Positions 17,114 to 17,887 of a stretch of DNA of 40,561 bases are shown one piece after another (position 1 is the first letter of the stretch; the number at the start of each line of letters is the position of its first letter). Source of the stretch: Clostridia bacterium (GTDB lineage Bacteria > Bacillota > Clostridia > Oscillospirales > Acutalibacteraceae). Where the stretch lies: contig JAGBAK010000124.1 of the NCBI GenBank assembly GCA_017938985.1, forward strand, positions 1 to 40,561. Reading direction: 5' to 3'. Both the position numbers and the translations under genes were made by a program. The notes beneath the pieces were generated by a model, which worked only from the letters and a program-made list of their open reading frames with translations, ran no database searches and was not told where the DNA came from.

Positions 17114-17189
17114 GGCGGCATAGCTCAGTGGCTAGAGCAACCGGTTCATACCCGGTAGGTCGTGGGTTCAAATCCAACTGCCGCTACCA
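17114..17189 (+). tRNA. tRNA-Met (CAT), elongator type
   Basis: A 76-nt cloverleaf with encoded CCA. The acceptor GGCGGCA pairs with TGCCGCT (one G-T), the anticodon stem is ACCGG/CCGGT and anticodon CAT is at 17147-17149. The T-arm has GGTTCAAATCC. The anticodon stem lacks the three G-C pairs, and position 1-72 the mismatch, of initiator tRNA, so it is an elongator. A tRNA-Ile2 (lysidine-modified CAT) cannot be fully excluded without covariance scoring. Confidence 0.9.
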
Positions 17190-17196
17190 TATAATT

Positions 17197-17271
17197 GGCC
17201 CGGTGGTCAAGCGGTTAAGACACCGCCCTTTCACGGCGGTAACACGGGTTCGAGTCCCGTCCGGGTCACCA
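17197..17271 (+). tRNA. tRNA-Glu (TTC)
   Basis: A 75-nt cloverleaf with encoded CCA. The acceptor GGCCCGG pairs with CCGGGTC, the anticodon stem is CCGCC/GGCGG and anticodon TTC is at 17230-17232. The T-arm has GGTTCGAGTCC. It lies 7 bases after tRNA-Met, so the two share one transcript. Confidence 0.94.
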
Positions 17272-17280
17272 CGAAAAAGA

Positions 17281-17310
17281 AAGACAAGTCGAAAGACTTG
17301 TCTTTTCTTT
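17281..17310 (+). terminator. Terminator of the tRNA operon
   Basis: A perfect 10-bp stem (AAGACAAGTC/GACTTGTCTT) with a GAAA tetraloop, followed by TTCTTTTTC. Confidence 0.9.
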
Positions 17311-17315
17311 TTCAA

Positions 17316-17483
17316 CGAAATAAATCCCTTTGGGATTTGTGAAATGCACTTTGTGCGTGAAATATTGCTTCGCAATGTGAAATACCTGCGGGTGTGGGGG
17401 ATTTATTTTATTTCACTTGATGCGTAAGCGTCAAATTTCACAATGACAGTATGTCATTATTTCACATCTGAAGGATATTTCAC
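17316..17483. repeat. Comb of seven small hairpins separated by GTGAAAT (left half) and ATTTCAC (right half)
   Basis: Left half: hairpins AAATCCC-ttt-GGGATTT (17322-17338), GCAC-ttt-GTGC (17346-17356), ATTGC-ttc-GCAAT (17364-17376) and ACC-tgcg-GGT (17384-17393), joined by GTGAAAT at 17339, 17357 and 17377. Right half: TTGATGC-gtaa-GCGTCAA (17417-17434), AATGACA-gta-TGTCATT (17442-17458) and ATCT-gaa-GGAT (17466-17476), joined by ATTTCAC at 17410, 17435, 17459 and 17477. The two linkers are reverse complements, so the halves could also pair with each other. AAATAAATCCC (17318-17328) is inverted at 17398-17408. Hairpin stems differ in sequence while loops are mostly three to four bases. The array ends just before the promoter of the next gene. 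Confidence 0.85.
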
Positions 17484-17512
17484 TTTAACTGTTACAACGC
17501 TTATGGTATAAT
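17484..17512 (+). promoter_or_regulatory. Promoter of the four-helix-bundle gene
   Basis: TATAAT (17507-17512) has the weak -35 TTTAAC (17484-17489) 17 bases upstream. Transcription would begin near 17519, so the hairpin comb lies upstream of the transcript and the ATG at 17516 cannot be used. Confidence 0.55.
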
Positions 17513-17536
17513 TATATGAAGAAAGGCGGTGCTTAT

Positions 17537-17887
17537 ATGGCAGAGTCCAAACTTCGAGAGCTTTCGACCGATTTCGCTGTTAAAATCATAAAACTCTGTG
17601 AAACAATCAGGGGGCATTATTCTCTTGTTAATCAGCTGGAGCGTTCTGCCACTTCTATTGGCGCAAATATCCGAGAAGCGAATTATGCTCACGGAAAATC
17701 TGATTTTATCGCAAAGTTGCAGATTTCTTTGAAGGAATGCTATGAAACGGAGTATTGGTTGGAGCTGTTTGTAAAGTCCGATATAGTGAGTAGAGATATC
17801 GCTGCCGATTTGTATAATCAATGCGGCACAATCCGCCGTATGCTCATCGCCTCCATCAACACCGCCAAACAGAACAATGAAAAGTAA
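17537..17887 (+). CDS. Four-helix-bundle protein (23S rRNA-intervening-sequence / S23 family)
   Basis: 116 residues, entirely helical, with the family signature LVNQLERSATSIGANIREANYAHGKSDFIAKLQISLKECYETEYWLEL. Proteins of this type (PF05635) were first noticed as reading frames inside 23S rRNA intervening sequences; relatives (Avd) serve as accessory proteins of diversity-generating retroelements. Their nucleic-acid role elsewhere is unclear. Here it is a stand-alone gene behind the hairpin comb, next to a tRNA operon, with no reverse transcriptase or rRNA in view. The ATG at 17537 is preferred: AAAGG lies 10 bases upstream and the earlier ATG precedes the probable transcription start. Confidence 0.85.
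   Translation: MAESKLRELSTDFAVKIIKLCETIRGHYSLVNQLERSATSIGANIREANYAHGKSDFIAKLQISLKECYETEYWLELFVKSDIVSRDIAADLYNQCGTIRRMLIASINTAKQNNEK

Follow-up and report, generated by a model that had tools for sequence, protein, structure and literature searches.

Genes of the PF05635 family are classically found within an insertion in 23S rRNA. REP/RAYT systems comprise many palindromic copies that lack a gene and a few that lie beside a dedicated protein gene, the RAYTs being HUH-type transposases. Integron cassettes and tRNA-targeted islands are characterized by recombination-site DNA that folds, by small passengers that differ from one another, and by an association with tRNA or tmRNA 3' ends.

Gut-1, a motif of three hairpins, is presented in the relevant part of Weinberg et al. 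2010 (PMC2864571) as a non-coding RNA with no assigned function, marked 'Human gut only'; within the literature searched, this was the only paper in which RF01706 is named. Heptamer repeats of cyanobacteria and Xanthomonas (STRR and GGGNATC, respectively) are described, in the portion of PMC4692102 considered here, as tandem 7-nt units, which in Xanthomonas often form inverted convergent pairs. The same portion treats the repeats as G-quadruplex formers, states that they are generally not found with mobile elements, and notes for Nostoc PCC7120 that inverted pairs are scarce and that the repeats are missing from plasmids; the terms '23S rRNA' and 'four helix' are absent from the text of that paper. 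In the P6b region of the Nostoc tRNA-Leu intron, degenerate heptanucleotide repeats base-pair into a hairpin, according to the section of PMC3488679 on this intron. Among the papers listed in searches of a library with few subscription journals and no preprints, none ties heptamer arrays to PF05635.

Here we describe an array in a contig of 40,561 nucleotides (hereafter the window) from a Clostridia bacterium whose draft genome is 81% complete. Between the terminator of a tRNA-Glu gene and the promoter of a PF05635 gene, seven hairpins stand between linkers that read GTGAAAT in the left half and ATTTCAC in the right half; we call this structure a comb (Table 1). We think it likely that a small mobile cassette has this array as its 5' end module; the ends of the cassette would carry heptamers specific to the clade of the encoded protein, and the protein would drive or guide its movement.

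Table 1. Features of the comb and its surroundings in the window
Feature	Position	Strand	Basis and details
tRNA-Met(CAT)	17114..17189	+	ARAGORN; upstream context
tRNA-Glu(TTC)	17197..17271	+	ARAGORN; element starts after CCA end, one C between
First hairpin, tRNA transcript terminator	17273..17313 (terminator-like hairpin 17279-17306)	+	Consensus match only
Variant linker CGAAAT	17316-17321	+	Read directly
Comb left half	17322..17383	+	Hairpins 17322-17338, 17346-17356, 17364-17376
GTGAAAT linkers	17339-17345, 17357-17363, 17377-17383	+	Read directly
Central arm	17384..17409	+	Contains GGGATTTATTT (17398-17408), inverted copy of 17318-17328
Comb right half (mirror)	17410..17483	-	Hairpins 17417-17434, 17442-17458, 17466-17476
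ATTTCAC linkers	17410-17416, 17435-17441, 17459-17465, 17477-17483	-	Read directly
Promoter-like site of PF05635 gene, TTAACT-16-TATAAT	17485..17512	+	Consensus match only
PF05635 / TIGR02436 four-helix-bundle protein gene	17516..17887	+	Profile match

The mirrored score of the comb is 7 (3 + 4 copies of the 6-mer core), whereas among 3000 dinucleotide shuffles a score of 4 occurred in three and a score of 5 in none. Direct reading confirms the seven hairpins and mirrored linkers of the original prediction. One hairpin (17417-17434) contains a G-T pair, and another (17466-17476) is weak, with 3 pairs. The alternative partner that had been proposed for AAATCCC exists as an exact pairing of 11 bp between the two copies given in Table 1. 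When 17313-17490 is folded as single-stranded DNA, the paired linkers form a trunk with hairpins on both sides, which is the central duplex with outward hairpins envisaged earlier; the z-score of the fold is -6.4 for the + strand and -6.2 for the - strand, and none of 200 shuffles was as stable on either strand. The array also ends, as had been claimed, at what looks like the promoter of the gene. On the other hand, the two tRNA genes directly upstream of the comb had been missed, and the element had been placed at 17316 onwards; its start appears instead to be the terminator hairpin that follows the CCA end of the tRNA, and elements of this kind often carry a second gene, which varies from locus to locus. 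In the bacterial order studied here the gene comes after the two comb halves, whereas elsewhere it lies between them, so that the right end of the unit in the window is not defined, a point against the cassette reading given above. The comb is not a CRISPR array: the intervening segments are hairpins, the repeats invert mid-way, only a sub-threshold match to CRISPR-DR63 was found in the window, and no cas protein was found among the 10 neighbouring window proteins searched.

The cassette in the window contains one recognised gene. Its product is a clear member of PF05635 (5.7e-25, 88 bits against a cut-off of 33.8) and TIGR02436 (99.2 bits against a cut-off of 24), and the conserved start is probably the ATG at 17537 (MAESKL). 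The sole solved relative found in the PDB is 2rld, an entry with five chains. The gene is not part of a 23S rRNA intervening sequence: it follows tRNA-Glu and, in agreement with the original prediction, no rRNA family match occurs in the window. Neither a recombinase nor a HUH (Y1) transposase was found among the 10 neighbouring window proteins searched, the gene of the cassette itself being PF05635, and no four-helix bundle of about 115 residues is known to us to act as a recombinase, which tells against movement by the protein. Elsewhere, PF05635 genes recur in defence-type operons: between or beside cas2/cas1 (L381, L385, L404), between hsdS and hsdR (L391), between DUF1156 and Swt1-HEPN genes (L390, L398), and between helicase and N-6 methylase genes (L397). 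The positions between or beside cas genes fit a figure-legend panel in PMC10910872, in the part of that paper on associations of the CRISPR adaptation module, which lists the 23S rRNA intervening-sequence protein.

Gut-1 matches at E <=0.001 number eight in the source genome; they are spread over four contigs, and three exceed the cut-off. The genome also has two PF05635 genes. Each of these genes has a mirrored comb directly upstream, and the linkers differ: the comb in the window has GTGAAAT/ATTTCAC, whereas its counterpart on contig C122, behind tRNA-Asn, has ATATCAT/ATGATAT. Two other GTGAAAT combs, which follow tRNA-Cys on contig C87, lack a PF05635 gene; the genes that come after them are an acetyltransferase gene and a gene with a sub-cut-off AAA match. 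Among 60 related genomes, PF05635 genes were found in 40 and Gut-1 matches in 44 (up to 48 per genome); the drafts are incomplete.

To define combs uniformly, an exact mirrored comb was taken as at least two copies of a 6-mer followed by at least two of its reverse complement, within 330 nt upstream of the gene. From the relatives, 92 of the 96 listed PF05635 loci were taken (four contig-edge matches were left out), of which 86 had at least 300 nt upstream. A mirrored comb precedes 44 of these 86 genes, compared with 0/430 shuffles, 3/90 other open reading frames (ORFs) of the same loci, and 3/82 downstream windows; a tRNA or tmRNA on the same strand ends within 450 nt upstream of 35 of the 86 genes, compared with 5/145 other ORFs. 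A second set took the best 80 of 579 matches, at named loci of gut and rumen Clostridia/Oscillospiraceae, of which 76 had enough upstream sequence and 75 remained after the removal of L330, which is identical to L042 of the first set. Here, combs were found at 62/75 loci (downstream control, 0/71) and a tRNA or tmRNA at 49/75; the comb rate of this set is biased upward because the loci were picked by similarity to eight proteins from comb loci. Arrays beside this gene family are thus present in other genomes and, in the first set, exceed chance, as the original prediction would have it. Its claim that stems change freely while pairing is kept was likewise borne out in the relatives, where drift of stems without pairing did not occur.

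The association is incomplete in both directions. The exact mirrored comb is absent at 42 of the 86 genes, which we count against the reading of the array as part of a mobile cassette. Among these 42, 13 have arrays without hairpins, in every case with a period of 7 (the control over periods 6-10 gave 5/121), some have degenerate combs, and the remainder have nothing clear. Conversely, and also against that reading, many combs and half-combs lack a nearby PF05635 gene, and some genomes have Gut-1 matches but no PF05635 gene (G006, with 21 matches, is an example). Since combs with other genes or none exist, we rejected the idea that every comb has a PF05635 protein as its one partner. Passengers without a PF05635 gene do exist behind a promoter plus comb; the possibility that such 'integron cassettes', without PF05635, are the core was set aside because the coupling between clade and linker, described below, favours PF05635 as the core.

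Several variants of the comb were also observed. Half-combs, consisting of GTGATATT hairpin units only and without a mirror, occur at L291/L263, L265, and L267 (G039:C10, C5), where they lie just upstream of the ribosome-binding sites of genes that, by eye, resemble prophage structural genes; in G007, several similar intergenic half-combs in one genome (L276-L279) are MITE-like. A hairpin-less variant at L089, L092, L093, and L100 (G023, G032, G019, G010), behind tRNA genes that are Gln- and Arg-like by eye, has the layout GACAGCGCC...GGCGCTGTTTG around AGATAATA-type heptamers and their complement, followed by the PF05635 gene. At L106, L116, L117, and L107 (G051, G049), part of the terminator is repeated inverted downstream and encloses TTCTCT- or TTCACT-type tracts. 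Solo combs L050, L059, L234, L253, and L282 have a common tail with a T-arm-like GGTTCGAATTC and ...ATCTTTTTCGTAGCCCATAGACA, and in most of them a terminator-like hairpin directly follows the tail. The combs of G059 (L221, L222, L228, L229, L231, L233, L235) represent a second solo type: they open with a perfect hairpin that is not U-rich, e.g. GGCGTGATACTC...GAGTATCACGCC, with no tRNA end directly before it. A right-end motif, AAATATCTTTTTCGTAG..., is clear only in the solo combs of a few genomes. In addition, two unannotated scaffolds labelled as human faecal phage (L392 and L393; MT835590 and MT835815), which may be bacterial contigs, carry a comb and a PF05635 gene, one of them behind tRNA-Arg.

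The two halves of the element are complementary, and the heptamer is coupled to the clade of the protein. Left and right linker chains were found independently in 54 of 162 elements, or 53 without a shared locus, and 48 of these 53 have a right linker that is reverse-complementary to the left one along 6 nt or more, compared with 139/1434 when left and right linkers of different classes are paired; left and right linkers thus co-vary. Over 88 elements, the similarity of linkers tracks the identity of proteins (Mantel r 0.80; 0/1000 permutations): a linker is common to 1470 of 1571 pairs at 60% protein identity or more, and to 126 of 2257 pairs below 60%. Different PF05635 genes in one genome had the same linker in 0/14 pairs. 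GTGAAAT, which had been taken as the linker, is merely one among many. Such tracking is expected if each protein reads its own heptamer; alternatively, heptamer and gene may be co-inherited as one mobile piece without binding.

In the window, hairpins stand between the heptamers, which are not head-to-tail, but at PF05635 genes on plasmids plain tandem heptamers prevail. From a set of 28 plasmid records, mostly cyanobacterial, 24 were examined (H10, H13, H22, and H27 were left out). Within 250 nt of the gene, 22 of the 24 have a period-7 array and one an array of period 8, while periods 5, 6, 9, and 10 did not occur; tandem heptamers are present in 38/48 adjacent flanks and in 1/48 windows 300-550 nt away. 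Sequence upstream of the gene is repeated inverted downstream at 20/24 loci, against 46/552 in a cross-locus control. Note that dinucleotide shuffles of the plasmid flanks reach the threshold for inverted 8-mers in 32/240 cases, so that the cross-locus control and the period-7 tests weigh more. At one locus (L384; Nostoc sp. ATCC 53789 plasmid, about 1106-1375), tens of GCGACTT-type heptamers downstream of the gene precede a gene annotated as element excision factor XisH. The Bacillota set comprised 28 newly returned loci, three of them below the family cut-off; period-7 arrays occur in 17, period 6 in two, and other periods in none, and the arrays are inverted across the gene in 13/28 (cross control, 30/756). 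The 11 loci without a period-7 array again count against the reading as a mobile cassette. Of 250-nt control windows elsewhere in these loci, 15/219 were positive for period-7 arrays, and in a neighbour-gene control of four ORFs only, two had a period-7 array and one had inverted 8-mers.

Cassettes of this kind occupy many different tRNA and tmRNA sites. PF05635 cassettes were found behind 15 tRNA isotypes plus tmRNA, and 176 of 198 pairs with PF05635 proteins at least 80% identical lie behind different RNA genes. For example, two elements in different genomes (L057 and L058) are 96.7% identical over 275 nt, including the first hairpin, with one behind tRNA-Thr and the other behind tRNA-Val; flank searches for their empty sites gave no usable orthologous site. 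The first hairpin travels with the element, being the same or nearly the same at different tRNAs in this pair as well as in L249/L250 and L223/L239. The site in the window, tRNA-Met/tRNA-Glu/thrS, is empty in two relatives (G031 and G033), and in a third (G063) an element at this site shares the first hairpin and the left half with the window but continues into another small gene. Among 30 loci with the tRNA-Met/tRNA-Glu pair, including the window, of which 15 were viewed up to 330 nt past tRNA-Glu (one to ~140 nt, at a contig end) and 15 to at most ~40 nt, an element after tRNA-Glu was seen in the window and G063 only. By eye, no copy of the terminator of the empty sites is apparent downstream of the gene in the window.

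Passengers differ as well. At 49 loci, a second ORF starts between -12 and +15 nt from the PF05635 stop codon, with an ATGA overlap in 27, and these 49 ORFs fall into 40 clusters, so the second gene differs between loci. Pfam searches returned nothing for eight of nine passenger proteins (several of them cut to ~110 residues) and, among another nine proteins, nothing for two and sub-cut-off matches only for two more.

Occupied and empty sites could be compared on plasmids, where three sites have relatives without the element. In Aulosira, ~500 bp lie at a two-gene junction where two relatives have 25-31 bp, and in two Nostoc plasmids it is found where the relatives have 188 bp in one case and, within a DNA methyltransferase gene, 328 bp in the other. 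With 25-328 bp exchanged for the element at these sites, host DNA seems to be replaced and clean insertion is less apparent; the window, with no terminator copy apparent by eye downstream of the gene, is in line with this.

These sites invite another explanation, in which a tyrosine integrase acting in trans moves cassettes at tRNA and tmRNA 3' ends, in the manner of integrons or islands, with PF05635 as a common passenger and the comb as an accessory att arm. The elements do lie at such ends: among 93 elements examined, 48 have a terminator-like first hairpin, which abuts the CCA in 41. The differing passengers are also as an integrase would have it, and so are two tmRNA loci. In L296, 1259 bp containing a comb, the PF05635 gene, a cytidine-deaminase gene, and a tail are bounded by exact 20-nt repeats of the tmRNA 3' end, and L280 has three tmRNA-end repeats (one mismatch each), with combs directly after two. 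A general integrase att site, persuasive at tmRNA, failed across 84 loci, as a repeat of the 3' end of the RNA gene was found downstream in only three (control, 0/377) and was clear at tmRNA sites only; none was found for the element in the window. Because they are otherwise so rare, the tmRNA-end repeats are not a general mechanism. Moreover, the range of isotypes is unlike a site-specific integrase, the searched neighbours in the window include no recombinase, and plasmid genes keep mirrored heptamers with no tRNA evident, as judged without a tRNA search of the plasmids. We therefore regard an integrase in trans as unlikely.

The comb might instead be a structured non-coding RNA, i.e. Gut-1 as in Rfam, acting in trans or as a leader. 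Indeed, the left half (17313-17388) matches Rfam RF01706 over model positions 1-77 with 75.3 bits, where the gathering score is 50; the right half (17405-17485, - strand) reaches 36.9 bits, below gathering. The original prediction spoke of an undescribed mobile element; signs of mobility are present, but the repeat itself is not undescribed, since its left half is already in Rfam. Stems that vary freely while pairing is kept and TTCG-type loops in the left half would suit an RNA, as would one linker class (GATATA/GCGATA/TCGATA; L115, L120, L123) in which 12-18 nt separate the comb from the start codon, with scant room for a promoter. Mismatch counts point mostly the other way. In left-half stems, 473 pairs contain 8 G-T and 11 A-C, and in right-half stems, 725 pairs contain 22 G-T and 18 A-C; G-T is thus no commoner than A-C in the two halves together (30 vs. 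29 of 1198 pairs), whereas in the 171 tRNAs of the loci, 3650 pairs contain 267 G-T and no A-C, a contrast that the pairing rule of ARAGORN may favour. A stricter count of single mismatches gives 0 G-T vs. 1 A-C in the left half and 6 vs. 1 in the right half, and the latter, with few events, leans towards RNA.

Other properties of the comb also argue against RNA. With a terminator-like hairpin before it and a promoter-like site after it, the comb is expected to be little transcribed, and its two strands fold equally well. The commonest loops of the right half are GAA (15) and GCA (13) of 113, and those of the left half TTC (22) and TTT (9) of 86; they are largely complementary, as expected for mirrored DNA ends. 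GNA loops form unusually stable DNA mini-hairpins. Furthermore, the wider family contains heptamers without hairpins. The comb thus looks like a DNA structure rather than RNA: the larger count and the terminator/promoter layout led us to set aside a purely RNA reading of Gut-1, the stricter count being less clear, and we consider such a reading improbable.

Still less probable, in our view, is that the arrays are operator sites for the autoregulation of a stable chromosomal gene and not the ends of a mobile element. A comb directly upstream of a promoter-like site and a linker that tracks the protein clade would be natural for an operator; the heptamers found inverted downstream of the gene at the 20 plasmid loci would not, nor would combs without a gene, the occupied/empty polymorphism, and the many insertion contexts. 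That the arrays are simple repeats grown by slippage, linked to PF05635 through a common intergenic preference, is hardly credible, for while array length varies widely, up to tens of copies (L384), and Bacillota loci have period-7 arrays at a distance from the gene as well (the 15 windows and two control ORFs above), the shuffle, neighbour-gene, and adjacent-window controls, the almost exclusive period of 7, and the complementary halves all speak against it.

Returning to the array as an end module of a mobile cassette, the cassette is ordered as a first hairpin (its own terminator), the mirrored heptamer comb, a promoter, the PF05635 gene, and an optional passenger gene. The heptamer may serve as the address and recognition unit of the element, with the PF05635 protein as its presumed reader; the five chains in 2rld suggest that the protein could meet a repeated array with several faces that are identical. 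The comb would act as DNA, in that the inverted arrays may extrude as a fishbone cruciform that marks the end or ends of the element; in the comb form, the heptamers would pair into the fishbone while the stems drift. The protein, whose gene is the only one common to gene-bearing cassettes, might drive or guide movement, probably by leading single-stranded or broken heptamer-bearing DNA ends into intermediates of replication or repair; such a path would account for replacement instead of clean insertion. The replacement of host DNA, together with the lack of a recombinase in the cassette or among the 10 neighbours, suggests such a route rather than cut-and-paste. Combs without a gene would be non-autonomous copies.

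The PF05635 family, which is widespread and has no known function, appears to belong to a single system together with an Rfam RNA of unknown function and with bacterial heptamer repeats to which no role has been assigned. We put forward, tentatively and as a possibility of which we are not yet persuaded, that the PF05635 family represents a novel type of DNA-mobilising protein without a recombinase fold. Each clade would read its own heptamer, build or bind inverted arrays of it as element ends (plain tandem arrays in several phyla, combs with hairpins in gut Clostridia), and install these in place of host DNA at tRNA 3' ends and gene junctions; Gut-1, cyanobacterial STRR, and Xanthomonas GGGNATC would all be traces of this single class of elements. 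If the protein indeed moves DNA, this would be a mobile element without a known recombinase, with a seven-letter code that changes with the protein, and it would account for PF05635 genes inside cas, restriction-modification, and other operons.

Compared with known systems, the elements resemble integrons and tRNA-targeted islands in their recombination-site-like folded DNA, varied small passenger genes, and use of tRNA/tmRNA 3' ends; they differ from them in that no integrase was found among the window proteins searched, tRNA ends are not generally duplicated, and the promoter-like site is borne by the cassette. With REP/RAYT they share many gene-less copies and few beside a protein gene, but the protein is a four-helix bundle and the arrays consist of heptamers with a clade-specific sequence. 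The product of the gene in the window belongs with the 23S rRNA intervening-sequence protein, whereas the genes studied here lie behind tRNA genes or in operons and are accompanied by heptamer arrays. The heptamers of the Nostoc tRNA-Leu intron, as they appear in the section cited, lie inside a tRNA intron, and no link to PF05635 is seen there. STRR and GGGNATC repeats, in the portion of the paper considered, are 7-nt units that are tandem and, in Xanthomonas, often inverted, as are those around PF05635 genes on Nostoc plasmids; head-to-tail period-7 arrays occur at other PF05635 genes, the linkers in the window being separated by hairpins. Finally, the Gut-1 match of the left comb half spans all 77 model positions and exceeds the gathering score, but here the motif is half of a mirrored element that has many other linkers and is tied to tRNA genes and PF05635.
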